The notes under the pieces are model-generated. The model had not been told where the DNA came from, ran no database searches, and was given only the letters and a program-made list of their open reading frames with translations. The position numbers were made by a program, and so were the translations under genes. From Hericium rajendrae (Eukaryota; Basidiomycota; Agaricomycetes; Russulales; Hericiaceae), in the NCBI GenBank assembly GCA_033439255.1, contig CM065879.1, forward strand, positions 476,501 to 540,500: a DNA stretch of 64,000 bases, written 5' to 3'. Shown here piece by piece: positions 25,538 to 58,140 of this stretch. Within the stretch, counting starts at the first letter, position 1. Each line of letters starts with the position of its first letter.

Positions 25538-28501
25538 ATGTCATCTATACCCGCCTTCGACTGGACACGAAGGCTCGATGATGACTGGACCTCACCAGAA
25601 GGTCTCAGTAATCTCAAGTCACTCGTTCAACCTCGCCTTTCCTTCGAACCTCACGACTGGCAGGCCTATGACTCCGCATGCATACTGAATGGGAGGGATG
25701 TCTTCTGCATATCAGCTACGGGTGATGGCAAATCAGCATTGATTTATATCCCAGCCCTAGTGCGCAAGGGGATGATCACCGTTGTGGTAGAGCCTACCAA
25801 TGCTCTCAAAAATAACATGGTCAGTCCCAATCATGCCGCAAAATAGCCTGCTTATCGTGAGCTTCTTCAGATTGTGAGTTTGCAGAGCAAAGGACTTGCA
25901 TCTATTGTTATCAATGCCGAAGAGATCGAGGATGCAAAGAAGAAAAACAAAGACCGTAATTTATGGGAGGAAGCGAAAGACTGCCGATACTGAGTAATCG
26001 TGCTGTCCCCCGAGATGCTCCAATCTGGTGAATTCTCAACACTGATTCAAGATGCAAGCTTCAGGAAAAGATGGGGAGTTCTCGCAGTTGATGAAGCTCA
26101 CCTTGTTGACGACTGGGGCACCGAGTTCCGCAAGGCATATGCGGCGATCTGGACTCTGCGTGCCCGCGGCCCAGACCACTTGATGCTGGTTGCAATGTCT
26201 GCGAGCATGGAGAAAGGCCCACAGATGACACACATCTTGCAGCACCTCGGTTACCGCGAAGATGCTTACCACCTGGACAAGCGAGATTGTCAGCGTCACA
26301 ATGTTGACTACGTCTTCTGCACCATGCAATTCTCACATACTGGTTTCGAATTCCATGACCTTGACTGGCTTATACCAACAGATCTTGCCCATGCATCTGA
26401 TGTCCCCAAGCACATCCTCTACAGTGATACGATAGAGATGGGACACCGCATTGCAGGATACCTTCGGGCATTACTTCCTATACACCTGCAAAAATTCGGA
26501 TACAGCCTGGTGCGCCACATGCACTCCATGAACTGTCCTGAATGCAAAAAGGAGGGGTTAGCAGCACTGGAGGCATCAGATGAGGATCGCACGATGGCAA
26601 TCTTTGTCGCAACGGCAGTCTGGGAGGTTGGACTCGATGTACCGGACATTGACAGTGTGATCCTGTATCCTGCCCCGGCAAGTGCCTCGTCAATCATCCA
26701 ATGAGCAGGGTGCCCGGCACGTAGCCCAGGAATGCGTGGAGAGGCCATCGTATACGTCAAGAAGGCGGACTCGCAGGCGGCGCTGGAGTACGCGAAGCGC
26801 GAGCCAGCCGATTCTTGCCTCTTGGACCCAGAGAATGTACTTCCTCGGGAACACATTCCGAGTGAATCCCATTCAGATGGGTGCTTGCTGGGAATGCCAT
26901 TAGTGTCAGCGGCTGATACAGATATCGAAATGTGTGAGCGTGATGGTGGTGAGGGGACCACACCGAACGCAGTGGTGGTTGGGAGGATGTCGCCACCTCA
27001 TGAAGATGAGAGCTCGCAACTAATGGGACCAGAAGGCGGGTCATTGCTCAGAAGTATCAGAACAAGATCGTAGACTAATTTATATCTAATAGATGCACCT
27101 GTACAGCAAGAACCCAGGCAAGTTCGTTCGCGAGTTGTGTCCTCGGCAGCGCGCACGCTGGACGACACAGGCTTGCTTGACGAAGGGCATGTTGAGGTCA
27201 ATAATACATGTCGGCAACCTGTCAAGGTCGTTAAGCAAAAGGCTGGACCCAGTAGAGATAAGGGAGACGGTACGTTGAAGAAGGTGGGAAGAAAGAAGAC
27301 AGCTGCCGACTTGCCACATTCAGAACAAAGCAAACAGCTTTGCTCCGCGCGCCTCCTCATAATAGCGGCGCATACGTGTGGTCTCTGTATAACACGCCAG
27401 ATCAATCTCGTCTACGACAACCCTGGGACTGACCATAACTGTGGGTGCTACAGCTCGTGTCTGCCTCGTCCCCTGCCCCTCCCGCGCCCTATGCCTTCGC
27501 CTATCATCGACACACCTGAGGCAACTATCCCTACACGCGACTCGGACACACAGCCAATGCCAACACTGCCGGCGTACATGAAACTCACAAGTGCTGAACT
27601 CGTCGACATTTCCCAAGAACTCTCAGTCATCGGACGCAGGCTCTGGCGGAAAGTCCTTCGGGGCCCGGAATGCCTCTTCATTGGGCCCACCAGCTTCCTT
27701 CGTCCCGACATCATGAAGCGCATTACCATGGACTTTCATTTGCTGTCATCAATGGAGGACCTCAAACAAGGGCTGGTACGGAGCTGTGGTCGGAAGTTGC
27801 AGGGCTCGCCGAACGCTTTCACAAGAAGGCAATTGCCTGCCATGAGCGGTCATTGGAGGCACGGCGTGAGGCGCGGGGAAGAAAGGAAGCTGATGCTGTC
27901 CGTGCTGACCTTGTCTCCAAGGGTTTGGACCACATCAAGAGAGTCAAATTGCGCGTTCCGACTCTTATTTCATCTCTCGACAGAGTAGCGGCATCCGAGA
28001 GCAGTGCAGGTGAGCGACTGCAAGCTATCTTTGATTTTCTCTCCTTATTCTTTTCAGGTATCATAGATACAACCACTCCAGCCTCCAATACTGCCCCTCC
28101 CTTATATTCTGCCATCAGCGCTCGTGCCAGCACACCTGAACCAGGTCCCGCGCGCTCGGCACCTATGATTTTGAGTCCGTCAAATAGAGCCGCGCAGTTG
28201 TCTAGTTCCTCTTCACCCACCGAGCGTGTGGCTGGAGCTTCGATCCCCGTGGAACGGTTCTACGGGCCAACCACAAATCCACGCAAACATGCTCGGTTGC
28301 AGGATTCAAGTGACATTCAAGACGAGCGACCAGCGAAGGCACAGAAAACAGTACAAGCTTGCAAGGTACGAACAAATCTCTACGTCCGTTCTTCTGATGC
28401 TGACCTTTGATATGCAGACACCTCGGGCTGCAGCGTCACAGAAAGAAAATTTAGCAGGGACCTCGGCACTTCGCCGATCGAAAAGGAACACCAAAGCGTA
28501 G
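25538..28501 (+). pseudogene. RecQ-like SF2 DNA helicase, broken
   Basis: 3'-5' DNA helicase of the RecQ-like type multiplied in many mushroom genomes. Exon 1 runs to 25819 and has the Walker A motif SATGDGKSAL. After a 51-bp intron come VIVLSPEML, DEAH (VDEAHLVDDW), MSASM and the C-terminal lobe (FVATAVWEVGLDVPDIDSVI). An in-frame TGA replaces CGA at 25991-25993 (CRY-stop-VIVLSPE). Another at 26702-26704 falls in motif VI, where QR is expected, and the next GR reads GC. Further exons start at 27093 and 28418. A Cys-rich RecQ-type zinc region (CGLC ... HNCGCYSSC) follows near 27380-27450. A one-base frame change lies near 27775. The tail ends SKRNTKA. It is 17 bp from the end of the convergent DUF6589 gene. 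Confidence 0.85.
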
Positions 28502-30820
28502 GATCATATATTGAATAACTAGAATTCTTCTTCGTCACCGATGTCCTCGAATCCTGTGCTACCATCCTCACAAATATAATCTACCAGGTCTCTTTCCTGC
28601 TCTGTTATGTTTTGATCATCGTACATTTCATCTCCTTGGACAAGCACCCCATCAATCAGCATGCTCGGCAACGGACGTGATTGCACAAGGTATGCCTCGT
28701 CTTCTTCTTGAGTCATTGATGCTTCTTCATGATCATGGATATCACCTGCATCGTGCACCGTTCTTGTAATAAAGTCCTTGATCCTCTTGCCGTCATTGAG
28801 ACGCATGTCTCCTGTCGTCCAGTCATCTTGGGCAACATGGCCTGATGTTCAGCTTTTTCGGAATGTATTGAGCTCTTCGTCCTCGATGTGGTGCCGTAGC
28901 TCTTTGTACGCCGCTTCCTTTTTTACTCGGCGGTGTGTCCCGCCTTTTTCTCCCAGCCCGAAAGCAGATGCGACTGTTGCAATTGTGTCTAGGTATGCAC
29001 GCACATTGATCGAGATGATCTGCCGATAGAATGAGCCTCCAAACGTAGCATCTTTACGTGTGGCCATTTTCTTGAGCTGACCGATATCCTTCTCCTCCAG
29101 GAGATCGTCAGGGAACCAGCATCCCTCGATTCCGGACAAGTTACATAACCAGTTGTTGAGGATAGCTTCCTGGAGCTCAGGAGAGTATTCAAACTCAAAA
29201 TTGCATACCAGCTCAAGGAGTTCGTTTGTGTACTTGTGGCGACCTGAGCCTGCGAATGTAAAGACCCAAACCTGGAGGGCAATTTAGTCCTGACTAAATT
29301 GAATATATGTAGCCATGCTCACCGCCATCACATTGATTGCTCGACCAATGTCCCCATCAGCAATTGCATAGTGAAATTCATAATGAATCAGGCTATCACG
29401 TCGATGCAGAATTGCGTTGGCCAGCACTTGATCACCTTCAAGCAGTGAATCTGTTCGCGATCCATCGCTTTCAGTCCGTCTCCATTGTTTGCCTTCAGAA
29501 AAATACTCTTGAAGAGATTCATCTGGATACAGAGCCTGCATATGGCCTGCCATGGAGCAGTATCGGTGAACGAGTTTATCTGCGTATAATAGCAGCTCCT
29601 CAATTGGGATTGTATTTGCCTCAAAATATGCCTCGAGATCCTTCTGGCCAAGTAATTTTCTGTAGCAAGCCATGAGTAAGCACATAGTAACTTTTGCAAG
29701 GCAGGCATACCTCCAACAATCCAGAATTTCCACCTTCAAAGAGTCGAATACAAGATGCTGTGCAGGATAATAATCGGGGTGCTTGCCGTTTTTGACTTTC
29801 TGACCCATGATGGTATTTGTCGAGCAGAATGAGGAGAGATCTCTTATCTGGCTTCCCCAGTGTGTATTGATGATGCGTTCGAGGTCCGACCAACCCATGT
29901 GCCAGAGCTGAATCACAGGTAAGACCCAGCTATAATTGCAATAGCCATGAGGGCATGACGCCGCAATCTTCTTCAGCATGCGCAACTTCTCAACGGTCGA
30001 TTGGTCACCACCAATCATAGTCAACAGCTTTGCAATCTCCTCCTCTGACAGTCCAAGCTGTGTAACAAGGAGATCATGTAGTACCTTCGCGTTCTCCACA
30101 GTGTTTCCCTCGTTGTAGTCGGATGTCGCCAAAGGGTGAAACTTGGTCCTGCGACCTTTTCGCATGCGGTGAATAGCTAGGCTTGTTCGAAATCGTAACT
30201 GAATGAATTGTCAATGCAGCTCCAGACTCGGCACCTCCTCAACCAAGAATGAAAGGCAGTGAAGAGCTAGCAACGACTGCAGCTTCTTCTGATCCAGGCG
30301 CTTGAGTAGCATGCTGTGAGTTAGCTGACTACGACACTGCTCCTGATGTGCACGATGTAAAGGCTCCGGATCGAAAGCCTTCTCCGGATTGCAGTCCTCA
30401 AGTTCGACAAAGGTGGCAGCAGTCCTGTTATGTATTGTATCCTTCTGACCGAGGTTGGGGTCCCAAGCGTGAAACATACAATTGATATTGTCGTATATGA
30501 GGAGAAATGTGCATAGCTTGGTGGTCTCGGTGAGTTTGGACTGTGCCAATTTTGACAGCGCACGTAGAAACTTGAGGACTGAAGTATACGATGAAGAAAA
30601 CCCGACACGGCTAAGTACAGCATAGACGCTGTGCGGTATGGTCTGCGCAAAGAGCCAAACACCCATCAACTTGCAGAAGGCAGAGAAGTGAAGGTTTCGC
30701 GCATGCATAAGCAGCATCAATGCAACGAGGAGTATCTGTAAGGTACGTGAACTCGTGTCATCCCCTGGCCTGACAGAAGACATGGATGCACTCACTGTGA
30801 ACGGGTCCCGTCGATTTTTG

Positions 30821-30824
30821 CCGC
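30821..30824. repeat. Target-site duplication (left copy), CCGC
   Basis: The last four bases before LTR TGTCAC are CCGC. The first four after the other LTR (48480-48483) are also CCGC. Collapsing them restores the host reading frame. Confidence 0.9.
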
Positions 30825-33051
30825 TGTCACGCGGAAAAGCGGTTTCCGACCTAGGGGTGTCTGGGTTTTCTGGTAACTTTTCCAAGAACTCCTAGTTGTT
30901 CGATGAGGGATGGATTTGTCTTCTACTTCCGGTGTGAATCCGACTTGCCAAGGATTATGGCTGTGGGAGACGGAGGTCGAGGGTATGCGAGGCGATGAAG
31001 AAGTTCGTAGAACACTGTCACTCGATGGACAATGATCAAAAGTACGATGACTCGTAGGACATGAATATTGATGATCGGACTGGACGTGCGTATACGTGGA
31101 ATGATAACTGCTTGGATTCGTATCTTCGTGGATTGGATGTCAACGTGAATTCGTAGAATAACGTGGATTGAAAGCGCTTGTGAAGCAACTTGACCAGGAT
31201 TTGATTGTAGATGAGAACCTTAGAGGATTCTGATGTACAAACTGGGGGCAAAGATACTTGAATTTGGTGTTACAGGAACAGCCTTTATATACCCTAAGAG
31301 CTCCTATGGCTGCGCGGGTAAGAAATGTATCAAAAAGGATAGATGAAACGAGTGAGTCATTCCTAGTCATGTATAGTAAGGGTGAGTCGAAGTAGGTGAC
31401 TAGGAGATGAGTCGGTCAGGATAGTGAGTCAGGAAGAGTCAAACGAAGGTAAGAGTCATAATGAGTCAACACTCAGACGTATGAGTCAGAGACCAAACAA
31501 ATCAAGAGGAAAATGAGAGAACATAGGTGATGTAGCATCATGACGAAGACAAAGTGCAGGAAACATACGACAAAGAACATGACCAGTCCAATTTAGGCGT
31601 AAGGGTCTCCTATGGTCGGATGAAACTCGGCCCGAGGAGGCTCGTTCCGAACCCACTCCTTTACATCGACATCCATCCTCGCGGTTCCAGCCTCGATGGC
31701 GATCTTCTTGATCTGGCAGGCCTTGCGCATGTGATCAAAGACTGCAGGCTCGCAGTGGCCGCTGTAGGAAGTCGCATATGTGGAGGCCTCGTATACGCAG
31801 TGGAAAAGATCCAGTGGATTGTAAGGCTTGAGCCGATCCTTTGCCTCTGCCCCATCTCTGGTAAGCCTCTGCCTCTCTCTTCCTTCTCCGATGCACCAAT
31901 GACGTGGCACGACCATGATGATGCACCCAGATCCATAAGTGGAATCGGGATCAGGGCTGGCCGGCTCCTCCCCCCAATCAGGCCCGAGATCGTCCACAAC
32001 CTTCATACGTCTTACTCTCCAAACGGCCCAGGTATCCGTCACCGAGAGGAGTTCCTTGATAGCGCCATAGGCGCAGGATCCTTCGATGTCCGAGATCAAC
32101 AAGATGAACTGGCCTTTGCGAATGGGCATCGTCGGCTTAACGACTGAGATCCAGGGGAAGTGCAGGTTTCCGGTGATGAGCCGGACGGTCATGAAGTTAA
32201 AAGGGAGATCAACAGAGGAGGGGGCCCAGACGTAGCCGGTGCACTGATGGAACTGTCGAGCATAGATGTGGCCGAAGGGCCCTTCGGGAATAACGGTGAT
32301 GATACCGGGGGCACGGAATGTCGGGTCAGCACTGATCTCAGGAAGTGTTGGCGTAGGCAGGGGTGGAACTAATGCGGGAGCGCTCGGAGCAGCCGGAATG
32401 GAAGGAGGGAATTGGGCAGCAGAGAGCGTGGCAGGGAATGCAGCGGCCATGATGCTGGGGATGTCGTCATTCTCGTGCCTTTCTACCTCCAGTCGGAGGT
32501 CCCCTACATCCGTATCAGTCAACGTTACAAAGGAACGGTCATCGAAGATGAGTTCGCTCTCGATCTCCTGCTCCTGACGACGTGCAGCGATGGATATCTG
32601 GTCGGCAATGTCCTGCATACCTTCAAGAATTCGTCGAGGGTCAGGTGGCTCTGGCCCGTCGAGAACCGTTAGACGGTATCTGGGGTTGGCAGTGATGAGA
32701 TTCCCTCCGAGGTAAAAATTGAGTCTCTCGGTAGTGACGCTTCGCAGGGAATCGTGATGGACTGCTAGGAAGAGAGGAGGGAGATTCTCGGTGGGAGCAG
32801 GCCGGCGAAGTTCGGGAGCAGGATTAAGAAGAGAATCAAACCAGGCCATGATGCGTTGGAGCATGAAGGGCGGAGTCAAGAGGGAGCGTGAATGGGGGCT
32901 TTTAGAGAGAGTGCAGCGTGTTTGTGGGATGCTTTTGATGCAGGTTGGCAAATTCTTATATGACGTTGCTTCTTCTCATCTTATAAGCGAAATGAGTGAT
33001 GTGCCGCCCTTTTCTTCATGTTAGCGCTCGAAACATGTTGCAAGCGCGACA
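30825..33051 (-). repeat. 3' LTR of the gypsy element
   Basis: 2227 bp, near-identical to 46253-48479. It contains an intact open frame (31593-32864) in the element's sense direction. A TATATAAAGG box in the same direction lies at 31282-31291, about 460 bp before the LTR end. Confidence 0.95.
31593..32864 (-). CDS. Open reading frame carried within the LTR, unknown protein
   Basis: 423 residues from the ATG at 32864, in the sense direction of the element, wholly inside the LTR. The middle is Pro/Ala-rich and the C-terminal 200 residues look globular (FILLISDIEGSCAYGAIKEL, TWAVWRVRRMKVVDD, MVVPRHWC). No known domain is recognised. TATA-like sequences (CTTATAAGATG near 32985, CATATAAGA near 32957) stand upstream. 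The copy in the other LTR is broken by one TGA. Coding inside an LTR is unusual. It may be an accessory protein or captured host coding sequence. Confidence 0.6.
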   Translation of the reverse strand: MLQRIMAWFDSLLNPAPELRRPAPTENLPPLFLAVHHDSLRSVTTERLNFYLGGNLITANPRYRLTVLDGPEPPDPRRILEGMQDIADQISIAARRQEQEIESELIFDDRSFVTLTDTDVGDLRLEVERHENDDIPSIMAAAFPATLSAAQFPPSIPAAPSAPALVPPLPTPTLPEISADPTFRAPGIITVIPEGPFGHIYARQFHQCTGYVWAPSSVDLPFNFMTVRLITGNLHFPWISVVKPTMPIRKGQFILLISDIEGSCAYGAIKELLSVTDTWAVWRVRRMKVVDDLGPDWGEEPASPDPDSTYGSGCIIMVVPRHWCIGEGRERQRLTRDGAEAKDRLKPYNPLDLFHCVYEASTYATSYSGHCEPAVFDHMRKACQIKKIAIEAGTARMDVDVKEWVRNEPPRAEFHPTIGDPYA

Positions 33052-33095
33052 TCCGCGGGGAACTTGAATGGCAACTGTCCCCAGTTGCGACCGTC

Positions 33096-36000
33096 CTAAT
33101 CGTCATGAGAAGATCCATTTTCGGAAGAAGATTCCTCAGAATCCAAACTTTCGGCCTCCACAAGTTTTCGACCTATCTTGGGAAGCTCTGATCCCGATCG
33201 AGCGATGTAAGGTAGGAGCCTAAAGGCTGCACTTGCATATTTAAGGTATGCTCCACTTGGTTCTCGTAGCACATATGAACCTCCCTTTGTCCTTCTTTCC
33301 ACGACATATGGACCAAGATAGCGAGGCTTTGCCTTTCGATCAGCACTAAGCTCTATGCCTGTGTTGCGCATCAGGACTAGGTCTCCGGGCTGATAGTATT
33401 CTGTTATCATTTTTCGTGCAAATCGTCATTCAAACTTCTCTTTTGACCCCAATCTATGCTGCTTGAGGGTCAAAGCTGCTTTGGCTACATCTGATGGCCG
33501 CTTCTCCAATTGGCGAATTCGAAGTGCTAGAAGATCGGCTTCCTCCATTCCTGATTTAAATCCTTCGACAAGGAACGTGGCTTCGGTGAGGTCAAATGGA
33601 AGTACTGGATGACATCCATGAAGGAGGTAGTAGGGGGAAAATCCTGTTGATTGACTAACGGTAATTCGGTCAGCAAAGAATGCCTGTGCGACTTTTTGAG
33701 GCCATTTATGAATCTTTCCTTCACAGGATTTGATAATGGCTTCTCGGATAATAAAGTGCCCGCGTTCTACAACTCCATTTGCTCGAGAATTATAAGGGGA
33801 GATGGTAACGTGCGGTGTTCCCATTTCTTCTGTCAGCTTGCGAAATGCACCCAGGAACTCCTTTCCATTGTCTGTGACCACCTGGCCAATTGCTCCGTAT
33901 CGGCAGTATATTTCTTCCCAGAGGAAGTTGGCAAGATTTTCAGATCTTTTGTTGCGAAGGGCTCGCCCTTCCGAGGCTCGGGAAAGGTCGTCTCGTGCTG
34001 CCACTATGTATTGAAACCCATTGTCTCCTCCTACCTGTGGTAAGTCCATTAGGTCAAGGTACACCTTCACCCATAAGTTTGAGGGTGTCGAGATCGTGGG
34101 TGGAATGACCTTTCTTTTTAGACTTCGAATTTGGCACTCGTGACAAGAGCGCACATGGTGTCGTACATCGTGCCTCATATGTGGCCAATAGAATCGGAGT
34201 CGAAGGGTCTCGAACACAGATTGCTCCCCTCGATGTCCAAGTCCTTCATGTGCTTCAGTAAGCAACTTTGTACGCTCATCATGACCAAAGATCACTTTGA
34301 AGGGGTGTTCATTCCCATTTCTCCGATACATGGAATCTCCTTTGATGAAAAACCGAGCTACCTTTTGTAGAAAGCGTCGATCATCCTGTACAGTTTTGAC
34401 TTTGGCAGGATACTGAAGAGTCTTTAGAAATCTAAAAATATCCTGCAGCTCCTGGTCAAGTCGAATGGTGGCTGAAAATATGAATGACGGCAATTTCCTA
34501 ACCGAATAGTGATGTGGAACAGATGGGGATGTTTTAGAGATCGTGGCATAGAGCGCAATGTTGTCCAGCCATGAATCATCATCCTTCTCTTCGCGTTCCC
34601 CTTCAGCGGGTTCTCGACGTGACAAAGCATCTGGCCCTTTAAATTTATCCGCCGGTACATGGACAAGGGTGAAGTCGAACATGAGGATTCCTTGGATCCA
34701 TCGATTGATAGCGGCATTCGGCTGAAGGTCTGGGGCATTTAACATTCCCTTGATGTACTTGGCATCGACCTCGACGTAAAGATCTGTGGCACCGATAAGA
34801 TGTATGCTGTAATGTTTGAGGGCTCGGTACAACCCGAATAATTCCAGCTTTGGCTGAGAGTAACGAGACTCTACTTCGCTCATGGGCAATGATCCATACC
34901 GAGCAGGTCTTCGTCGGCCTTCTTCATCTAACTGGGAGAGAATGAATCCGACGGCATGCTTACTTGAGTCAACTGATAATATGATAGGCTTGTCCGATGA
35001 GTAGTCGATAGCTCGTAAAGCAGGTGCCGTTGTGACAAGCTTCTTCAGCTGATCAAAGGCTTTTTGCCGCCGTTCATCCCAAATAAACTCAGCTTCCTTT
35101 CGAGTAAGTTCAGTGAGTGGTCGGATGATCTGGGAGTATCCAGGAATCCAGATGCGGACTGTGCCACATAGACCTAAAAATCCTCGCACGTCTTTTGGGG
35201 TCTTTAGTGGGGGCCAGTTGAGAATTTTGGAAACCTTTTTATCTTCTGGTATGCGTCCATCCTGTGTGCACGTCTGCCCCAGAATATCCACACTCGGGCG
35301 GCAAATCTGAACTTTGTTGGGTGCGAACGTCGCTCCGGCCTGCTTGATGCGGTGCATAATCCGATGAACATCCTGCGCATGTTCCCAGATGAATCGCCGA
35401 ATTCCTGGATTTTCCGATAACACCTCTGGTTCTCCTTTTTCATTGAGGTACTGAGTCTTTGGCCCTCTAACTGCCAAGTCATCAATGAAGATGTTGGCAT
35501 GTTCAGGGATTTCAGGCTGCAGGATGAACACCATGCAATTCTGAAATTCAGCTGGGGAGTTGGTAAAGCCCATGGGCATTGATGTGATGCGGAGAAGTCC
35601 AAGCGGCGTCAGAAATGCAGTGAGATCACGGCTTTCGGGATGAACTTTTCGTGCATCGAATCCCCAGAAGAGATCAAAGACGGTGTTACATGCCCGCCCT
35701 GCAAAAGGTTCAACAAAGTTATCCAAAATAGGTGGGACTCCTGAATCTCGGATGGTCACCTTGTTGAGTGGCTGAAGATCATGTACAATACGGAGCTTGC
35801 CATTTTTCTTCAATACGCAAAACCAGCGGGAACGATAAGCTGATTGAGATGGCTCATATACTCCGGCTGCAATTTTTTCTTTGATTAGTGTGATGACCTT
35901 GTCCTTTATTCCAGGTGGGATCGGTATGTTTCGGTACTCCCAGGGACTATGAGGTACAGTGGGAATAATGTATGGCGTAAAATAGGATTCTTTGAGGGTC

Positions 36001-36995
36001 CCGCGCTGAGTCTCTTCAAAGGCAAGGGCCTCCTCATTTAGCACCATGATGTGCGTGAAGAGTTTTTCCTCTTCTGGCCATAGGAACCCCTCCGTATTGA
36101 TTTTTAGGATGTTACGACGTTCTTCGGTGATACGTGCCGTCGGCTGGAAGTCAGGCGGTAGCTTTGGTAAATGTGGCAGGGTCAGAAGTGGATCTTCGGG
36201 AATTCGTCGATGGACTCGTGCAGACTCCGGGAATGTCCCAGGCACTGGTTTAACCTTCTTGTCAACGCGTTTGTACATGGTGAAGGATTGTGCATGATTT
36301 TCGACCAAATTCAGAAGCACCGAAGTTATTCCACCTGTTGCGCAAGTAGGATTATTATTGCCATGGAGCGAGGTCGATGCGAAGAGGCATGTTGCTGCAG
36401 GATGCAAATCAAATGATGCGCAATACGTGTCATTGGGGATCCCAGATATCCGATGGCAAGGGGCGCTACACAAAGAAATAAAACAAAGGTCCGAGGCCCG
36501 AGAGTCCAAGGTTAACACAAGGGGTTTCATAGTAGGAGAAGAAGAGGCATAGGGAAGGGGAAGAGGCACCAACAGGTTATCATACAGAGGATCTGAGGAA
36601 TGAAGACTGAAAGGAAGATGTTTTTGGATTTTTAAGTATAGATTATAGTGATGTTTTTGGGTTTTATGGATTATTCGAAAAGCAAGGGGCAAACGTAGAC
36701 GTACAAATTCAGACAGGTCCGAGATAGCGATCGACGCCAGCAGATGCGAAAAGTCATAGCGATAGGTGAGGATAGGGGAAAGTGGCAAGACAGGCCTGAC
36801 CGCGGGGAACTTGAATATTGAGTCCGGCTCGAAGAGATTTCGGGCGCGCACCTTAGTCGTCATTTGCTTCAAGGATAGTACGCTCGTCGATGAGGTATTC
36901 CTTGACGATGTCATACCATTCCTTGAATTCATGATCGTAAAGCTTGGCAAGCATGGGGAGTTGAAGTCCGTCGACCAGTCCGCTTTCGATGACAT
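33096..36995 (-). pseudogene. pol: Gypsy pol: reverse transcriptase, RNase H, integrase; one internal stop
   Basis: 1189 residues from the ATG at 36995 to a TGA at 33426-33428, then the same frame continues 105 codons plus five to 33096. Reverse transcriptase: KKNGKLRIVHDLQPLNK, MPMGFTNSPAEFQ and the active site FIDDL (near residue 503, where YxDD is usual). RNase H starts near ILSVDSSKHAVGFILSQ, with a later ALSRRE. Integrase: zinc HHCC (LGHRGEQS ... CHECQ) and DDE core (VVTDNGKEF near 1040). The C-terminal GPY-type module (RYLGPYVVERR) lies beyond the TGA. TGA stands where CGA fits (EKFE-stop-RFARK), so this copy is probably inactive. The frame is +1 relative to gag. Confidence 0.88.
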
Positions 36996-46236: not shown

Positions 46237-46252
46237 CGGTGGGCTCCAATGA
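46237..46252 (-). promoter_or_regulatory. Candidate primer-binding site of the gypsy element
   Basis: Directly inside the 5' LTR, four bases after its end, the minus strand reads TGGAGCCCACCGCG. This would pair with a tRNA ending GTGGGCTCCA. The position and TGG start fit a PBS; the tRNA is not identified. Confidence 0.5.
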
Positions 46253-46709: not shown

Positions 46710-46719
46710 CCTTTATATA
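46710..46719 (-). promoter_or_regulatory. LTR TATA box
   Basis: The minus strand reads GGGTATATAAAGG here, about 460 bp before the end of the 5' LTR and in the sense of gag-pol. This makes it the likely core promoter. The 3' LTR has it at 31282-31291. Confidence 0.6.
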
Positions 46720-47020
46720 CCCTAAGAGCTCCTATGGCTGCGTGGGTAAGAAATGTATCAAAAAGGATAGATGAAACGAGTGAGTCATTCCTAGTCATGT
46801 ATAGTAAGGGTGAGTCGAAGTAGGTGACTAGGAGATGAGTCGGTCAGGATAGTGAGTCAGGAAGAGTCAAACGAAGGTAAGAGTCATAATGAGTCAACAC
46901 TCAGACGTATGAGTCAGAGACCAAACAAATCAAGAGGAAAATGAGAGAACATAGGTGATGTAGCATCATGACGAAGACAAAGTGCAGGAAACATACGACA
47001 AAGAACATGACCAGTCCAAT

Positions 47021-48292
47021 TTAGGCGTAAGGGTCTCCTATGGTCGGATGAAACTCGGCCCGAGGAGGCTCGTTCCGAACCCACTCCTTTACATCGACAT
47101 CCATCCTCGCGGTTCCAGCCTCGATGGCGATCTTCTTGATCTGGCAGGCCTTGCGCATGTGATCAAAGACTGCAGGCTCGCAGTGGCCGCTGTAGGAAGT
47201 CGCATATGTGGAGGCCTCGTATACGCAGTGGAAAAGATCCAGTGGATTGTAAGGCTTGAGCCGATCCTTTGCCTCTGCCCCATCTCTGGTAAGCCTCTGC
47301 CTCTCTCTTCCTTCTCCGATGCACCAATGACGTGGCACGACCATGATGATGCACCCAGATCCATAAGTGGAATCGGGATCAGGGCTGGCCGGCTCCTCCC
47401 CCCAATCAGGCCCGAGATCGTCCACAACCTTCATACGTCTTACTCTCCAAACGGCCCAGGTATCCGTCACCGAGAGGAGTTCCTTGATAGCGCCATAGGC
47501 GCAGGATCCTTCGATGTCCGAGATCAACAAGATGAACTGGCCTTTGCGAATGGGCATCGTCGGCTTAACGACTGAGATCCAGGGGAAGTGCAGGTTTCCG
47601 GTGATGAGCCGGACGGTCATGAAGTTAAAAGGGAGATCAACAGAGGAGGGGGCCCAGACGTAGCCGGTGCACTGATGGAACTGTCAAGCATAGATGTGGC
47701 CGAAGGGCCCTTCGGGAATAACGGTGATGATACCGGGGGCACGGAATGTCGGGTCGGCACTGATCTCAGGAAGTGTTGGCGTAGGTGGGGGTGGAACTAA
47801 TGCGGGAGCGCTCGGAGCAGCCGGAATGGAAGGAGGGAATTGGGCAGCAGAGAGCGTGGCAGGGAATGCAGCGGCCATGATGCTGGGGATGTCGTCATTC
47901 TCGTGCCTTTCTACCTCCAGTCGGAGGTCCCCTACATCCGTATCAGTCAACGTTACAAAGGAACGGTCATCGAAGATGAGTTCGCTCTCGATCTCCTGCT
48001 CCTGACGACGTGCAGCGATGGATATCTGGTCGGCAATGTCCTGCATACCTTCAAGAATTCGTCGAGGGTCAGGTGGCTCTGGCCCGTCGAGAACCGTTAG
48101 ACGGTATCTGGGGTTGGCAGTGATGAGATTCCCTCTGAGGTAAAAATTGAGTCTCTCGGTAGTGACGCTTCGCAGGGAATCGTGATGGACTGCTAGGAAG
48201 AGAGGAGGGAGATTCTCGGTGGGAGCAGGCCGGCGAAGTTCGGGAGCAGGATTAAGAAGAGAATCAAACCAGGCCATGATGCGTTGGAGCAT
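47021..48292 (-). pseudogene. Broken copy of the LTR open reading frame
   Basis: Same frame as 31593-32864, but CGA is TGA at 47684-47686 (after HIYA), cutting it about halfway. Other coding differences include a Gly-to-Arg change (LGGNLI to LRGNLI). Confidence 0.7.
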
Positions 48293-48479
48293 GAAGGGCG
48301 GAGTCAAGAGGGAGTGTGAATGGGGGCTTTTAGAGAGAGTGCAGCGTGTTTGTGGGATGCTTTTGATGCAGGTTGGCAAATTCTTATATGACGTTGCTTC
48401 TTCTCATCTTATAAGCGAAATGAGTGATGCGCCGCCCTTTTCTTCATGTTAGCGCTCGAAACATGTTGCAAGCGCGACA

Positions 48480-48483
48480 CCGC
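48480..48483. repeat. Target-site duplication (right copy), CCGC
   Basis: Mate of 30821-30824, directly following the LTR end GCGACA. Confidence 0.9.
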
Positions 48484-50116
48484 TCCCCGCCGGAGGTGGT
48501 TTTGAGAAGTAGTTGGCATACGATCGTGGTGGCTCGGTGTTCGAGTTCTTCGATGCATTTGGTACGCCATCGCACTTGCACCCCCGCTGTTTCCTGTTGT
48601 GCTTGCGGCCCCGCTGTGCGCTATCCTGCACGCCATCGCCCTCATCTCCATCCTGCACGCTGTCGTGCTTGTCTCCGTCCTGCACGCCGTCGCGCTTGTC
48701 TCCGTCCTGCACGCCATTGTGCTTGTCTCCGTCCTGCACGTCGCCATGCCCGTCTCCATCCTCTGCGACGTCCTCATCTGAAAAATGTGAAATCTATATA
48801 GCCACCAGCCAAAGCTATACCCATTTCTATAGTGCTATGTGTCCTATGTAGTCAGGTGACACAACTATCTAGAGCTATGGACACTATCATAGCCTGCATA
48901 GCTACAAGTGGTAGCTATATCAAGCTATGTAGGTGTAAGGGAGGCCTATGTAGTCTATAAACTTTAATAAGTTTGCTATGGCTCCTATGGCTCCTATAAC
49001 AGCTCAAATAGAAGGGATACTTCAAGGTAAAAAGATGCTGATATTGTTCCATAGACAACTAATCTACTACAAAAATAATGTGCTATACTACTAGTGTCAT
49101 GGACCACACTTCGCGTGGGCATAGGCACACACAGTCGGGGGGCATGCAAGGGCAGATATGCTCTGGCAGGGACAGGCACAGTCGTGCACGCACAATACGT
49201 GGCATGCGCGAGTGTGCGCATGCAGTCCGGCACATGTGAAGGCGTGCGCGCGCTGGTACAGCCTGGAAGGGGGGGCGTGCACGTCCGAAGCGCGCGCCGG
49301 CGTGCGCCTGCTGTCCGGGATGGGGCGCGAGGGTGTGCAGACGCTGATATATGCCGGCGAGGTGTGCGCGCGTCATCTGTGGTGCGCGTGGCTATGCGCA
49401 TGCAGTTCAGCGCGTGCTAGGGCATGCGCGGGCAGGCGTGCGCTGGCGGGGACAGATGTGGGCAGTCGGGATCGTGCGCACGCCGCGATGCGCTGGCGGG
49501 GGCGTGCGTGGACGGTTGGAGCCATGCGCGGACAGACGTGCCCCATCCGTGCGTGCGCTGCCTGCGATCGATGGCACGCAGTGGTAACGCGCACGGAGGT
49601 GCTATCGGGGCCGTGCACGAGCCAGCGTGCACTGGCGCGGACAAAGGCGTCCGTGCGGGGGTTGAGGCTGTGCGAGGCCGTGCACGGCGATGTGCAGGCA
49701 GCTGCGTGGTGCTGGGAGGGAGTGGAAGGCGGGAGAGGCACCGCCGCGGCGATATTGAGGACATGCAGGGTGCGCGTGTGTTGGGAATGGCGCGTGTGGC
49801 CCCGCTCCGCGCGAGCGACGAATGGACTGGAGTCGAGCCTCGTTGCCGTGGCAACGAGACTCGACATTGGCCTGGCTAGCCATCCACGGATCTTAAGGCA
49901 TCGTGCGCGGGTGTTGGGAGTGTCTGTGCGCGGGTGTTGGGAGTGTCTGTGCGCGGGTGTTAGGATTGCCCGCGCGTGGTGTTGGCCGAGCGCGAGCCGG
50001 TGGGAGCACCCGCCGTTGTCGCAGACGTGTGCGCGGGATGAGGCCCGCTGATACCGCGCGTGGGTGACGTGCCGGGATGTCCAAGCACCCACGGGCTGCG
50101 GCAAACAGGTAGGGGG

Positions 50117-50412
50117 TCATGGGGACGTCGTGGAGTGACGTGTCGGCGGTGCGGGAGTGGGCTGTCGAGTGCGTGGCGTGCGCTGTCGAAGGCGCGGGCA
50201 CGGGGAGGGAGACAGGCGCGGGCGGTGCGCGAGAGACAGAGTGGGCTGTCGAAGGGCGCGCAGGGGGGCGGGGAGTGTTGAAGAGCATGTAAGAACGAGA
50301 GTCTCGCTCGTTATCGAGCGAGACTCTCAAGATTAGTACGATATAAAGAGAATACAAGTGTTTTTTACTCACCTAAGTCCCTCGACCTTTGCCCAATCCA
50401 TCCGGCCTTCAT
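50117..50412 (-). CDS. Small spliced open frame of TIR family A (copy 2)
   Basis: Exon 1 50373-50412 (MKAGWIGQRSRDL), a GTGAGT donor, an intron with TACTAAT, then exon 2 50117-50325 starting ESRSITSETL, 82 residues in all. The acceptor would be GAG rather than the usual CAG/TAG. It matches copy 1 in phase and in the exon 1 end. Near the copy 1 stop both copies read CCG..ACGTCAC. Confidence 0.4.
50297..50328. other. Perfect 14-bp hairpin, copy 2
   Basis: GAGAGTCTCGCTCG, loop TTAT, CGAGCGAGACTCTC. It is the counterpart of 44518-44547 with a compensatory base-pair change. Confidence 0.75.
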
Positions 50413-50782
50413 GTTGATGCGGGTGATGAGGCGATGAGGAACAACGATAGAGACGAGCTGAGAGGAAGGGGAATGATGACTTGGAGTTCGAGACGAAGTC
50501 AAACGACGCGCCGTTCGGTGGTTCAGCCACCGAACGTGCGCGAGTTCGAATGTCGTCGAACTTAGTAAAGCTAATAAAATCGCAACAATTCCGGGGAAAA
50601 GACAGTAGATAGCGTTCGATAATATTATATGATTGAATGAGGCACATCTCTAACTAAAATACTGCAAGCTACTGGGCAGCGAAGCAACACTTACTGAAAT
50701 CTGGCACTTAGCCTCTGACGTGGTACCCGGGCCGAGCTCCGGCAGCCACATTTAGGGCTCCGCCGGGCAAACCCGCGCTCAC

Positions 50783-50790
50783 CTATATAA
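50783..50790 (+). promoter_or_regulatory. TATA box of the outward transcription unit, copy 2
   Basis: CTATATAA is followed by a pyrimidine-rich start region (TCTCTCTCTCTCTTC) and a TTCGGTAAGT donor at about 50879. This is a plausible pol II promoter with a first intron. Confidence 0.5.
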
Positions 50791-52150
50791 CCCTCGCACG
50801 ACGCGCGTTCTCTCTCTCTCTTCAACCACTACATTCCCCCTTCGCTCCGACTTTCCTCGGGTCTTTCCTCTCTACCTTCGGTAAGTCTTTCTTCTTTAGG
50901 TTTGCTATCCTATGCTTATGTCATTCATATCTTAAGGTTATTCATTTTCGCTTTTTAACACTTTTGGTATGTCTTCAATCTTTTGTCACTGTTAGTTTAT
51001 TACTAACTAATCTTTTATTTTGTAGCTTATTTTCGCTTTTTGTAATCTTTGTAAGTCTAGTATACTTATCTTGTGTTTATCTTTTAGTAGTAAGTGTAGT
51101 GTTTTTTTATACTTTTGTGATTAGTAGTAGTATGTTTGTTTGTAGTAATATAATAATATGAATATAATTTTGATGCATTAAACAAAGCCTATATTTGTGT
51201 GATCATTTTATTTGGATCTTGCTATATAAATTTAATTAAAATTTATAGTTTCAATAGGTTTTATTGCTTCAATAGATATGTCAGGTCTACATATTGAATA
51301 TAGAATATGTAAGTGGCATAAGTCTCATAGCTTTGATAGACACTTATAGCTTTCATAGCTAGGCATGCTATGGTAGCTGCATAGTCAGCTATCATAGCTA
51401 TGATAGTGCTCCATAGCATCACCCTTGAGCTCCATAGCACTATATAGCATCCCCCTTTAGCTATGCTGGCTATAAAGAAAAGGGCAGTGCTATGGAACTA
51501 TGAAATCTATGTAGACTTCATAGAGCTATGTAGCACTGGCAGATTTTTCTGATGCTGCTCACGTCCATCCTGCACGCTGTTGCGTTCGTGGCATCTCGCC
51601 TGCATGCCATCGCGCCCGTGTCCCTCCTGCATGCTGCCATGCCCGTGTCCCTCCTGCGTGCCGCTGTGCTCAGGTCCCTCCTGCATGCTGTCGCACTCGG
51701 GTCCATTTTGCATGCCATCTCGTTGCCGTTCCTCCTGCGCGCCGTTGCGCTCGCGTCCCTGTTGCGTGCCATGGTCCGCATGTCCCTCCTGCATGCCATC
51801 GTACTCACGTCCCTCCTGTGCGCTGTTGCACTCGCATTCCTCCCGTACACCGTCGGTCCCGAATTCCTCCTGTGTGCCGTCTTGCTCGTGTGCCCCTTCC
51901 GCGATGTTGCGCTCAGATCCTTGCTGTGTACCATCGGCTTGGGAACTAACTGTTTCGGGCATTGCCAGGTTGCCTCGATGCTGCGAACGAGAGCTGGGAA
52001 TATCACCAGATGGAATAGATACAGTGTGGGTTGTGGTCGGGTCTTAGCAGGAAATGCAGCACAGAGTAGAAGGCGCAGAAGTATCGGCGCATGAGACTCA
52101 GCAGCTGCAAGGATGTCGGTAAGAGAGAAATTGAGAGGTGTCCCAGTCAC

Positions 52151-55100
52151 TGAAATACATTATATAGGGCAACTTGCCTAAAATGTATTACAAAAACCCC
52201 GGCAGTTGCTGCCCGGGGCCTTGCCATGCACATTATAATTCACACAGGTAAGGCAGCACCCAGGGTGCCGCAAAAACATATGATATTCATAGAAAAACAT
52301 ATCGGCCGAGATCATAAGGATCTCGGCCATCATCACTACTGCTACGGCGGGCTCGGCTATGCCATTGCCGATGCCCGCGCTCATTGCTCGCTTACCGCAG
52401 ATCCCGCCCCGCGCGCCTGCCGCTCCTTGCTGCGCGCTTACCCGTCCTCGCCGCGCGCTTACCGCTCCCCACCGCGCGCTTACCGCTCCCCGCTGCGCGC
52501 TTACCGCTCCCCGCCGCGCGCTTACCCTTCCAGCCGCTCCCCGCCGCGTACCGCTCGCTGGCACCCAGCGCCGTGCGCTCGCCCCCTCGCAGCGGCTACG
52601 CGCACTTGCTGAAGAGCGCGCCGCCGCTCCTGCTCTTGCTCCCGCCGCTAGCCCGCACCGCTCCTGCCGCACGCTTAGCGCGCCTCTCTGCTCCCGCTCC
52701 CGCCGTGCACCTGGCCCGTGTCCGTAGCTTCGGCCACACACGCACTGCATGCTACTGCGTGCGCTACTGGCCGTACGTTCGCTGTAGAGCGCGCCTGCCG
52801 TGCCACAGCACAGCATATCCACACGCTCGGGCCATGCGTTGGCCCGCACGCTACGTGCCCGCACGCCGCGCATGAGCACAGAATGCTCATATTGCAGCAC
52901 AGGGCGGGGTCGTGGGCTATGGGCACAGGGTGCGAGGAGCGGGTGCGCGTGGCGTGGGTCCATGCGCGAAACCGGCGGGCTGGCAGCTGTTGCGGGGAGG
53001 ACAGGCGGAGGGAACGGGCGGGATGCCGACATGCACGTGCCGGCGTTGTCGGTCTGTGCATGCTGGTACGTGCATGGAGATGGCTGCCAGCGCGCGGAAC
53101 GGGCTGCCATGCGCGCGGGCTCGTACGAGCGGGGGCCGATCAAGCGCGTACACACGGCGTCTAACCTGCGTGCCGCCGGCGCTGGTCGGTACATGCAGCG
53201 TGCTAGTACGCGCGCACGGGGGGGAGACAGCGCGTTGACACGCAAACGGTCGGGTGGGGGGTGGTGTGTGTGGCAATCACGCATCCGGAAGCTTGAACGG
53301 CGCGCATTTGCAAGCGCGGGACCCTGTGTGACGTGCGATCATCACGCAGGGGGCTGAAGGAGGTCGGACGCGCGTTTGCAAGCGCGAGGGAGATGGTGGA
53401 TCGAGGTAGGGGCCCTGGCGCGAACGCGTGGTCGCTAGGGCACATGGAAGTTGTCGAACGGGCGGCTTGTCGCCTTGTGCGAGTGCGCGAGTGCGCAGGT
53501 GGTGACGGACATGCATTTGCGAATGCGGGGGAGGGGAAATGGGAGGGGGACGCGCGGCGTCGTTGTGCGGCCTGTGGTGCCACGTCATCGCGCTCGGAGA
53601 CTAAAATAGGAAAGAAACAGTCAGTATATCATATAGATACAAAGCACAAATGAAAGACTTACAAACTTGAGGGCTATTGAGCCCTAGATCATCCCCGCTT
53701 GATGGGAGGAGGAGGAAGAGAGGACAGGCTCAGCCATTGGCCTTGTGGCACCGACCGGCAATTGCCGAACAGCGCACCGAACGACGCTGGCAAAATTCGA
53801 AGACGATTTTCAAAGACAATAAATTGTCTTAAACTCTACAAATAATATATCAGCTGTATATACAATGCAATAACGTATGTACCATGTTTGGTGCGAATAC
53901 AATGGACTGGAAGTGCTCTGCATGCGGAGCACTGATAAGCACATCTAAAATAGACGGCGCTTGTCAATAATGCCAAACGCGTCGAGCTCGAATCGACGTC
54001 TCGGGCACGCCGGACATCTGATTCGAGTCGCGATATCTTAGTACACCTCCCTTCTACCATCTATCGGTGTGGTATCACGTATTGGGGCGCACTATAACTA
54101 TGTAATAGTACTTTATTGTATTTTTCTATGTTCCAGATCTATAGGATCTGGATCAGATTGATGCTATTCGGTCGTTTCAGGCCAGATTCTACAAGTTTTT
54201 CGAGTCTTGAGGTCTCCAATCTTCATCAAAATATTTGTACTCTCGGAAATATATAATATATGACTTTTAAAGACGTTTCGCATAACTCGTTTGTCCAATT
54301 TTGAAGGGGTGAAGCCTGCACCATCTGAACTATGCATTAGGGTTACCTAAGGTTACTGTATTTTCGTCCTCCTGACTCTCATATTGCCATTGATGGCTTA
54401 TTTCTTCTATCATATGTTCTATGCTACTATAGGTACGTATATGCGCTTCAATCTCTGTCTTTTGCGGTACAGAAACCGCACAAGACTTGTCTCCTCCTCC
54501 ACCCTCGGTCTTCTCGGCCTTCAGCCACCGAGATTCGGCGATTGCCGAGCCGCGTCACAGTTGGTACGCGGCTCGTCCTCTCCCTACCTCCTCCCTGTCC
54601 TGCAGTCCTGCTCGCCACTCCTCCCTCTTCGCACTCACGCGCACCTCCGCGCTCTTTGCGCGCCGTGCCTCCCTTCTGCTGGCCTCTCTATCTCCCACGC
54701 CAACCGCGCATCCGCCGCGCTCCATGCCCCTCGACCACGCCCTCCACGGCCCATCACAGCCGTCCACCCACCTCCACCCTCCACCCACGTGCAGAGGTGC
54801 GTACAACACGCCCCGGACGCGTATGGACCCGCGTACGATAATGTGGACGCGCGTCCGACAGCCGCGCTTGCGCGGTGCCAGCACCCATGCCCACGACAAC
54901 ACCCGGCGTGCGTGGCCGCGGCCTCTACGCATCGCGCGTCGCACGTCCGCGGCTCTCAAGACCCTAAGCGTCGCTGGATGCTCGTGACGGATCCGCAACG
55001 CCCGCGCGCGACGTGCAGCACCGCGACACCGGCAAGCACAGCGCAGCAACGGCACGCTGCCCCCTTCCTGCCCCCATCCACCCGCGCTCAGGCTCCAGCA

Positions 55101-55759
55101 CCCGTGCCGAACGCTAGCACCCGCGCGCGATGCCCAGCGCCCACGTCAAATGCCCGACGACCGCGTGGGGTACGTAGCAACGGCGCACAAGTCCCGGCGG
55201 CCGTGTGCGGGCATAGCACCACGCCAGCAATGCAGCAACGACGATGGCAGCAGCACCTGTGGCACTGATGACGTGCGTCGCAGCAACGTTGCCGGGGAGC
55301 GAGCGGCGGCGGCGGCTGGGAGCGGCGGCGGTGGGAACTGAGCGGCGGCGGCGGGGAGCGAGCGGCGGCAGCAGCGGGGAGCGAGCGGCGGCAGCAGCGG
55401 TGGCAGCTGGGAGCGAGCGGCGGTGGCGGGGAGCGAGCGGTGGTGGCGGGAGGCGGGCACAGGCGCGTAGCTGAGGGCGGGAGGCGCGCGGGCGCATAGC
55501 CGAGGGCGGGAGGCGGTGAGCGCGTAGCCGAGGCGGGAAGCGCGCAGGGCGGTGGACGGTGCCGAGGCAAAGCGGGCACGGTGCCGAGTGAGTAGGCGCG
55601 CTAAGCGCATGGTAGTGCGTAGTGTACGGCCCGGTAAGCGGCCCCGATGTACATTATAATATGAGTGAATTATATTGTGCGTGGCAAGGTCCCGAGCAGC
55701 AACTGCCGGGTTTTTTGTAATACGATTTAGGCAAGTTGCTGGTACACAATATAATTTCA
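52151..55759. mobile_element. TIR element, family B (in the DUF6589 gene)
   Basis: 3609 bp. The ends are inverted copies: TGAAAT at the tips, then about 75 bp that match closely, starting GCAACTTGCCTAAA and including TATTACAAAAA, CCGGCAGTTGCTGC and CCTTGCCA. The flanks belong to one host frame (55760-56284 and 51555-52150), which rejoins in phase if the element is removed. No clear target duplication is seen. The interior has two GC-rich arms and a less GC-rich centre (53600-54480). No transposase is recognised. Confidence 0.8.
52430..52530. repeat. Short tandem repeat, 18 bp, GC-rich
   Basis: At least four units of CGCGCTTACCGCTCCCCG with small changes, in the left arm of the family B element. 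A related GGGAGCGAGCGGCGGC tract lies in the right arm at about 55298-55440. Confidence 0.7.
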
Positions 55760-56284
55760 TAGCTGGGACTGGTGGAAATTGAGTATTGACGCCCACGTTC
55801 CTTCGGTGTTGGGGAGGTGGAAGCCGCCTTCCGTCGATGACATCGTGTCGGCCTCTGAGCTCACCACACTTTCTACCTTTCGAATAGTCCAATCCTCTAG
55901 TAAACCTTGAGCCATTACTTTTCTTTTGCGCTGTCGCGTGCGAGCCTCGGCAGCCGTTCGGTTTTTCGAATTGCGGGGCACCTTGGGTTTACTGAGCTGA
56001 TGAGAGTACATCATCTCAGCAATGACATCAGGTTTTATGGTCGTCCGGCCACAAAGAAATTGGCCGAGCATGCCGGTGTGGGACTCAGATCGACACTCCT
56101 CTTCGCCCGACTTTGGAACAGCAAGAACGTCCTTGAGAAATGACCCAATGGTCCAGTTTCGGCATTGAATTTCCTTGAGCATAAGGGAGACTTCATCGGC
56201 TCGGTTTTGTCCTAGATAATAAATAGGCAGATCAGCTTCCTCCGAGCTGTCAGAGAGATTCACCTGTGAGCTCGGCGTCGGCAT

Positions 56285-56466
56285 GATAGCATAGGAAAGG
56301 AGGAAATCTCGAGAAACGCGGTCTCTTTCGTACGAAGTACAGTACGCGCGACGCGCCTTCTGCTCTCTACAAGGAATTCACACTCCGCCCCTGCTCTCTG
56401 CGCCCATGTGATTCAAGCGCCGCCCAGAAACCGACCCCTCACTAACAGGACGCGTCAGAAAGTAGA
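56285..56466 (-). promoter_or_regulatory. Presumed DUF6589 promoter
   Basis: The 182-bp gap between the GHKL-like gene and the DUF6589 start. No TATA box is evident. Confidence 0.35.
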
Positions 56467-58140
56467 CTACGTGGCTGTATCTCCGGTTTCGTCAGGATCG
56501 AAGGGATCCAGGGCGCGGAATGCCTGTTCTCGGGCCTCCTCCGGAGTGAGAATCGTATTGAAGCGTCGCAGAGCATCATAAAAAAGCCGCGTTAGCAAGA
56601 CAGGTGTCTTGGCTAGATGATCTTCAATGATGTGTCTTTGCTCCGTTGTCTCCTCCGCATAGAAGAAGAATGCCGTTCAGCCATGCTGTTCCTGAAGCTC
56701 TTTGAACAGTGCCTCTGCACATTCCCGACTGATAGAGTCTTCAATGCCTTTCACATCAAGTGACCTCTCGTGATGAAGGAGAAGGTTGATGTACCGTTTT
56801 CGGGCATCTATGGAGCTTAGAATCAGGGGCTCCCAAATATTATATATGGCCTTTGCAGCATCTTCTCTGTTGTCCAGTGCAGATCGATCACGGCTCATAG
56901 CAATATCATCAGCAATGTTGATCCCATAAATGAGGCCTGTGGTCTTGTCATCTTCTTGCCGAACAAAGACACCCTTCACCTAAAAAGAGTTGTGTCTGAT
57001 AGTAAGCACAATTTTGTCAAAACAAATGTCACAAGGAGACATACATAGATTTTAGAGTGATGCTTCTCATCTACTAAAACACAGCCATTTGACCATATGT
57101 CTTCATGTACAAAGACTTGTGCTGGTAGCCTAAGGAAAAGAAATCGATCTAAATCCAGAGATTGCCATGCTAAATTGTGAATCTGAACAAGAACACCATC
57201 TACATCTCTTTTTGATTTCTTGACATGAAAAGCAAGCTCAGTCTTCAAATATCCAAAAATCCAGGCTTCTTGTCCTGTATGATACTGGACTTGAGCATGT
57301 TCTCGCATAAGGGCATTGATACCTGAATATAATTTTTTTTTTAAGTAGGAGATATACAATTGTTGAGAAAAAAAAATGCACCTATCTTCAAACCATCACC
57401 ATATTGCCCAATTAGATTAGGATTATCTTGTTTTGTTGAACTGCCTAGAGTCCAGGCAGACTTGTTCATATGACCAACATTGAATAGCTCAACATCTCCA
57501 AACTCAGGCTTGCTTGCTGAAGGCCTCCATGCAATATATCCAACTGGAAGTGATTTGTCTGTAAGGAGTGAGGTTGTAACATCAGCCTTGTTGTATAAGA
57601 AAATTTCAAGAGATTTTGCTGGAGGATCAGAGGAAAAATCTGCTCCAATTTCAGCCAGCTTTCCATTGTGAAATTCTTCAGCTTGAATATCATGTGGCTC
57701 TAGGTCTTTGCACTGCATAATTGCATCAAACATATTTTGAACCAGCTCTCGAAGACCTGCTGCAGCACTCCAGCTATTGTCAGAGGAGCGAGGTGCTCCA
57801 TAACTTCTTGAGATATTGAGAGTCCACATGTATCTCCATGAGACACTCAACTTTCCATTAGCATCATACTTGAAAAATTTGGCATATTTGAAGTTTCCAC
57901 CAACTCTCCATGGCTTGAGACCATGGGATTTCTTGTATGAGTCCTTGCTCCGAATGGCGGGCTTCTGTGGGGGGGTGCCGGCCACGAGCTGATTATGAAA
58001 GATGACAAGACATAAATTTCGAGTGAGAAGAAAAAGAAAACAAGGTACACACGCTTATAGTCCTCATCTGCTGAAGAATCCTCAACATCCTGATCCTCCG
58101 AATCACTGTCTGAAGAGGTGAATATTGGGCTGGGAGTCAT
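56467..58140 (-). pseudogene. GHKL-type (HATPase) ATPase-like protein, one internal stop
   Basis: Four exons (58051-58140, 57382-57988, 57045-57322, 56467-56979) join in phase to 496 codons. The GHKL fold is suggested by the N-box-like LRELVQNMFDAIM and the glycine box IGQYGDGLKIG. ATP binding is therefore predicted; the client and reaction are unknown. The N-terminus is acidic and Ser-rich. In exon 4 a TGA at 56677-56679 interrupts the frame (ELQEQHG-stop-TAFFFYAEE), again where CGA fits; 69 more codons follow to a TAG. Its 3' end is 182 bp from the ATG of the DUF6589 gene on the same strand, which suggests one module with it and the helicase. Confidence 0.72.

Follow-up and report, generated by a model that had tools for sequence, protein, structure and literature searches.

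A probable AcademH-like DNA transposon with RecQ-like helicase and DUF6589 genes in the genome of Hericium rajendrae

AcademH DNA transposons were reportedly described by Kojima in 2020 (Mob DNA 11:15). They are the nearest described kind to the element analyzed here, a unit of one RecQ-like helicase gene and one DUF6589 gene found in a 64,000-nucleotide stretch of the Hericium rajendrae genome (46.8 Mb, 19 contigs). This stretch, C2:476501-540500, is herein referred to as the window, and positions given without a contig are counted from its first letter. In the available parts of the published accounts, AcademH elements duplicate 9 or 10 bp at the target (PMC10045372) and are low-copy in Basidiomycota (PMC10799480). 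KolobokH elements, in the portion of their account available, are confined to fungi and combine a DDE transposase with a RecQ helicase located downstream of the transposase domain (PMC9587614). DUF6589 proteins are present in many mushroom genomes, where they are labelled only as hypothetical or as DUF6589. A literature search over 5.39 million open papers gave no use of the name DUF6589, and the sole match for PF20231 was an optics paper.

The DUF6589 protein is interpreted here as the DDE transposase of an AcademH-like transposon, with the RecQ-like helicase as its second protein and with the window copy located in a GHKL-like gene (probability of about 0.88). The value of the analysis lies in a likely function for DUF6589 and in possible one-ended insertions.

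The two-gene element and its target gene in the window

The window locus is a decayed two-gene DNA transposon sitting in a host gene. The transposon occupies positions 25285..56469, with the RecQ-side end on the left and the DUF6589-side end on the right. It was delimited by its matching termini, TAGTCTCCC... and ...AGACTA, which are of the TAGTCT type, and by an exact 8-bp repeat flanking both ends (CGTGGCTG, target-site duplication copies at 25277..25284 and 56470..56477). Both terminus kinds are also carried by the relatives C9:151975-158390 and C16:58086-64742. Inverted termini are common to the family members; those of the window copy are short and imperfect, with 12 of 20 bases matching.

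The GHKL-like gene is a host gene split by the insertion. Its N-terminal part is located at 56467..58140 (minus strand), and its frame is closed by a TAG stop codon that the outermost three bases of the transposon supply. The continuation of the gene lies beyond the transposon, at 24350..25284 (minus strand). When the flanks are joined with one copy of the 8-bp repeat, the frame is open and reading continues past the transposon. The protein of this empty site aligns to a paralogue at C2:552-557k (L034) with 55% identity over 285 columns, with no gap at the join and 11 gaps elsewhere. The GHKL call is based on motifs read by eye in the exon 57341-58054 (minus strand), for which Pfam and PDB searches gave nothing credible. 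Two matches to this exon were found in the genome, namely the exon itself and the paralogue, which lies ~50 kb from the nearest DUF6589 match.

The RecQ-like SF2 helicase gene (25538..28501, plus strand; ATG at 25538, stop codon at 28499-28501) contains in-frame stops and is decayed. The DUF6589 gene is located on the minus strand in several parts: the 3' part with the catalytic core (28519..30824, stop codon at 28519-28521), a middle part in a region of 27-bp tandem repeats (48480..48774, right edge approximate), another middle part (51555..52187, edges approximate), and the 5' part with the start codon at 56284 (55721..56284, left edge approximate). The initial annotation had placed the two genes tail to tail, with the GHKL-like gene just upstream of DUF6589 and with the whole locus decaying. 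This arrangement was recovered: 17 bp separate the two stop codons, 182 bp separate the DUF6589 start from the GHKL-like stop upstream of it, and the in-frame stops in the helicase and GHKL frames are consistent with decay.

The assignment to DUF6589 is certain (PF20231, E-values of 1.1e-66 for the largest exon and 3.4e-109 for the whole locus). PF20231 is also the sole Pfam match of the scanned DUF6589 exon, with no match to hAT or P profiles there. In the helicase exon of the window, Helicase_C scored 28.0 bits (cut-off 23.5) and DEAD scored 21.3 bits, under its cut-off of 26. A pieced-together helicase from a C8 relative has RecQ, BLM, and WRN as its best solved relatives; searching the DUF6589 gene on C8 for splice sites yielded no model.

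Within its family, the window copy is old and broken, and it was later struck by a long terminal repeat (LTR) retrotransposon and by terminal inverted repeat (TIR) elements. The LTR retrotransposon (30825..48479, minus strand; LTRs at 30825-33051 and 46253-48479, 99.4% alike) is inserted in the DUF6589 gene and contains an open reading frame (ORF) with reverse transcriptase, RNase H, and integrase. A TIR element is nested within it at 43142..45910. Another TIR element of the same kind (48775..51554) and one with arms 90% complementary (52188..55720) are located in the DUF6589 gene itself, the edges of all these TIR elements being approximate. The 27-bp tandem repeat of this gene (48600-48788 and 51574-51951) is interrupted by a TIR element. 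Free of insertions, the window transposon is ~7.2 kb long, and its two bounded relatives are 6.4 and 6.7 kb. The earlier figure of 8.6 kb had included the GHKL-like gene.

Gene pairing, termini, and target-site duplications across the genome

At least 68 genome matches were found for the DUF6589 exon, and at least 35 and at least 44 for the two helicase queries. Clustering of these matches resulted in 34 DUF6589 loci and 40 RecQ-type loci, some of the latter probably being ordinary helicases. In this one genome, a RecQ match was found within 10 kb of 24 of the 34 DUF6589 loci, convergent at 20 and divergent at 4, and within 25 kb at 5 further loci; the other 5 lack one even at this distance. 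With uniform random placement, the mean was 0.59 RecQ-paired DUF6589 loci and the maximum was 5 in 5,000 draws. The proximity of RecQ and DUF6589, suspected earlier from a single locus, is not due to chance. All four divergent pairs form one group, consisting of two C16 copies and the copies on C10 and C11.

Pairwise distances of the RecQ and DUF6589 genes correlate with r = 0.925 (0 of 20,000 permutations) in 13 copies, which are those with long enough pieces among the 14 two-gene loci compared and include two near-identical C16 copies. The two sets of distances rise together, indicating, as judged from sequence divergence, the co-inheritance of RecQ and DUF6589. At C16:254495-269686, two RecQ+DUF6589 units are inverted, with compared protein pieces 99-100% identical, and may represent an inverted duplication or an assembly feature; an ungapped palindrome test of this pair gave 6,974 mismatches in 13,910. 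A duplicated 8-kb stretch with a DUF6589 gene was found at C14:399001-406982 and C14:1378317-1386300 (99.6% identity), and the helicase genome searches gave no RecQ match on contig C14.

The first scan for element ends required that 9 or more of 14 bases match in inverted orientation and that an exact 8-11-bp repeat flank the ends. It detected the window element, C11:1226626-1234295, and C8:743104-749706, which is 6,603 bp long and has 151-bp inverted repeats and the 9-bp duplication CTTATGCGC; C10:1777035-1800658 and C2:1757309-1769294 were bounded next. The motif YAGNCT was derived from these five elements, and pairs of YAGNCT ... AGNCTR located 5-35 kb apart were tested in 15 stretches including the window. 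Exact 8-9-bp flanking repeats were found for 8 of 6,927 terminus pairs, with 0.11 expected at equal base frequencies for repeats of at least 8 bp. All 8 pairs enclose a RecQ+DUF6589 pair; five of the bracketed elements had helped to define YAGNCT, and the C9, C16, and C6 elements had not.

The duplications are of 9 bp in all five bounded copies of the other subfamilies (C8, C10, C11, C2, and C6:3040763-3047421) and of 8 bp in all three bounded copies of the window subfamily (the window, C9, and C16 elements). These three copies are mutual nearest relatives, with DUF6589 57-73% identical and with both terminus kinds common to all. A 9-bp register is possible in the window if the left terminal T is counted as part of the repeat, and is impossible in the C9 and C16 copies. 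The two-gene unit with its own ends occupies new sites, where 8 or 9 bp are duplicated, and shorter copies of it exist. The comparison of loci, proposed in the initial annotation, yielded shared edges, terminal repeats, and an empty site for RecQ+DUF6589.

Among further copies, C2:4690946-4714511, which lies within a tandem stretch, has identical 17-bp ends and a 9-bp repeat, and C1 carries a mini-copy of 96 bp flanked by a 9-bp repeat. Both termini were also found 0.69-0.95 kb apart at C1:4639298-4640003, C3:3443152-3444096, C6:3237247-3237952, C7:2071986-2072691, and C4:2609988-2610675. These five terminus pairs are likely non-autonomous copies of the window subfamily. The C4 copy has an additional RecQ-side end directly abutting it.

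Transposase fold, classification, and alternative readings

Modelling of the DUF6589 core, for which an RNase-H-like fold had been considered, gave a transposase-like predicted fold. The model of the relative P0001 resembles DDE transposases, its top solved folds being Hermes (hAT) and the P element at 5-11% identity, and shows an RNase-H-like DDE transposase fold with three acidic residues. On this predicted model, D258, D428, and E628 (P0001 numbering) would be the catalytic residues. DUF6589 would recognize ends starting with YAGNCT, cut them, and join them to target DNA by a staggered cut, producing duplications of 8 or 9 bp. In a putative role in transposition, the RecQ-like helicase probably opens the DNA at the element ends, or unwinds or clears the product of joining, letting a strand be moved or copied. 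The window copy jumped into the GHKL-like host gene, and the LTR retrotransposon and TIR elements were inserted afterwards. This element class raises the question of why a DDE transposase would carry its own helicase. When viral contigs were scanned using the alignment of DUF6589, 9 pattern matches were obtained but could not be confirmed in any case, and Foldseek against predicted viral structures gave no DUF6589 match at E <= 0.001.

The likeness to AcademH, as far as the available descriptions of those elements extend, includes a transposase and a helicase in one element, 9-bp duplications in the five bounded copies of the other subfamilies, and low copy number in Basidiomycota. This likeness, drawn from published descriptions, suggests kinship of the element with Academ; the same accounts, in the parts available, mention no solo-end insertions. 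Several results weigh against the proposed transposon and its placement. The window subfamily duplicates 8 bp, not 9 or 10; C9:1261844-1268314 has 333-bp perfect inverted repeats yet lacks a duplication; and no element could be bounded at C4, C8:1873k, C8:1858k, C9:181k, or the two C14 copies. Because of the 8-bp duplication, the element is called AcademH-like and is not filed as AcademH.

It is rather unlikely that the element is a TIR transposon of another superfamily (KolobokH, hAT-, P-, or MULE-like) with an independently acquired RecQ helicase. Duplications of 8 bp are typical of hAT and P, and Hermes and the P element are the nearest solved folds, at low identity; on the other hand, the scanned DUF6589 exon matches PF20231 only. 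hAT and P transposons are not known to encode a helicase. The target duplication of Kolobok is TTAA. Fungal KolobokH likewise bears a DDE transposase with a RecQ helicase, according to the available part of its account (PMC9587614), whereas the genes found here are separate, on opposite strands, and associated with 8-9-bp duplications. KolobokH was set aside because no duplication seen in any bounded copy is TTAA. A subtelomeric telomere-linked helicase repeat, instead of a transposon, is very improbable. RecQ-only genes were found at fungal chromosome ends, as reported in the available portion of the source (PMC7473861), and resemble this family in being multicopy with a RecQ-type core. Three RecQ copies without a nearby DUF6589 match (C1:642001-642707, C1:5260586-5261292, and C11:57691-58397) are 67-68% like the window helicase, and two of them lie within 60 kb of contig ends. 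However, the window element is located ~0.5 Mb inside a 4.87-Mb contig, most paired loci are interior and contain a transposase-like gene, and target-site duplications mark the insertion of a unit. At ~0.5-0.6 kb from each RecQ-only copy, there is sequence matching nt 87-191 of the C9 element's RecQ-side end; therefore, the three copies look like truncated transposons, and they may link the transposon to subtelomeric RecQ genes.

The initial annotation had combined RecQ, DUF6589, and GHKL, which adjoin in this single window, into a three-gene module acting as a mobile element or a conflict system. Its mobile part survives for RecQ+DUF6589, given their recurrence, shared termini, duplications, and linked distances. 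GHKL as a module partner was rejected: a duplication and a transposon end separate it from DUF6589, and its gene resumes beyond the far end. The gene is placed outside the unit because the exon searched has a single other genome match, a paralogue not beside DUF6589, because its stop lies inside the transposon end, and because its remainder lies beyond the other end. A module of all three genes is thus hardly credible for this genome, and no support for a genome-conflict role turned up, no separate test having been aimed at such a role. With the AcademH-like transposon as the preferred reading, DUF6589 gains a predicted fold, a gene partner, element ends, duplications, and a likely function; therefore, annotations that count DUF6589 genes and their RecQ neighbors as host genes can be corrected.

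Solo RecQ-side ends and neighboring features

The RecQ-side terminal 65 bp of the window transposon (25285..25349, plus strand) match a unit found alone elsewhere in the genome and hold a short covarying inverted repeat. With at most one mismatch, the RecQ-side terminus of the window subfamily, TAGTCTCCCNNNGGCAGAGT, has 112 genome occurrences (0 for the reversed control), and the DUF6589-side terminus, TAGTCTNSTTTCTGAYGYG, has 10 (2 for the control). A convergent DUF6589-side partner within 40 kb was found for 9 of the 100 RecQ-side places listed, two of which share one partner. About 100 genome copies of this RecQ-side end have no recognizable second end, and two of these were read in sequence. 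The C8 RecQ-side ends 1460438 and 1460784 face each other and may delimit a small element whose ends are both of the RecQ-side kind.

Queries with the 200-nt ends of the C9 element gave at least 41 matches for the RecQ side, where 40 of 96 candidates were scored, and 3 for the other side. Among the 41 RecQ-side matches listed, 26 begin at nt 1-15 and end at nt 50-72, and 9 end exactly at nt 65. For the C11 family, used as a control, the 200-nt ends gave 17 vs. 19 matches; therefore, this family is balanced in number and the asymmetry was not seen in it. Six C11-family end copies, some near contig ends, show just one terminus.

The two solo copies read in sequence are C16:274032-274096 (L013:8032-8096; 65 bp, identical to the C9 end, flanking repeat ACGTCATC) and C16:273485-273547 (L013:7485-7547; 63 bp, flanking repeat CCTATAGT). 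Each terminates in TCTGAC and is flanked by an exact 8-bp repeat; as background, exact flanking repeats of 8-9 bp were found at 38 of the 45,565 stretches of 63-67 bp sampled. Immediately within the right edge lies a short inverted repeat (columns 21-26/58-63), in which double changes keep 3 of 6 pairs across 5 rows, two of them identical, the C16 element end having two unpaired cells and the second solo copy one gap and one G-T. When five ends of 63-65 nt were folded as single-stranded DNA, they did not outperform shuffles (z from -0.98 to 0.97), so the inverted repeat is proposed from covariation only.

These copies could have arisen by one-ended insertion, in which unwinding from the helicase-side end would halt ~65 nt in, past the covarying inverted repeat, and the piece would be inserted with an 8-bp duplication. 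We regard this explanation as tentative and somewhat doubtful. If true, one-ended insertion would have scattered ~100 solo ends genome-wide, and it would suggest that transposition proceeds by copying with strand displacement and depends on the RecQ helicase, the 65-bp insertions being a possible footprint of the helicase step. For Dada, single-end cleavage was proposed for copies with odd flanks, as stated in the available part of the paper (PMC3706591); no literature on earlier one-ended DNA transposons was judged fitting from titles and abstract starts. The chances are slightly better than even that the solo ends are instead a tiny family of miniature inverted-repeat transposable elements, bred from a single 65-bp deletion derivative and not from repeated one-ended events. 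The right edge TCTGAC shared by both readable copies and the 9 of 41 BLAST matches ending exactly at nt 65 argue for such a family, whereas the termini listed fall into types matching different full elements (GGG like C9, TAA like the window, AAA like C16) and the solo right edge is unlike the other transposon terminus.

Downstream of the target gene, C5 DNA-methyltransferase-like ORFs were found at 20808..22536 (minus strand), with Pfam matches below the cut-off (E-values of 0.0057 and 0.081). The paralogue of the target gene (L034 226-5381, minus strand) is located ~12-17 kb past the right end of the window. Methyltransferase-like ORFs follow it too, including a C5 DNA-methylase domain (PF00145, 24.1 bits, cut-off 22). 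The GHKL-like gene and the C5 methyltransferase-like ORFs are possibly one GHKL-methyltransferase fusion gene. Elsewhere in the window, two F-box-like genes lie side by side at 2067-6460 (minus strand).

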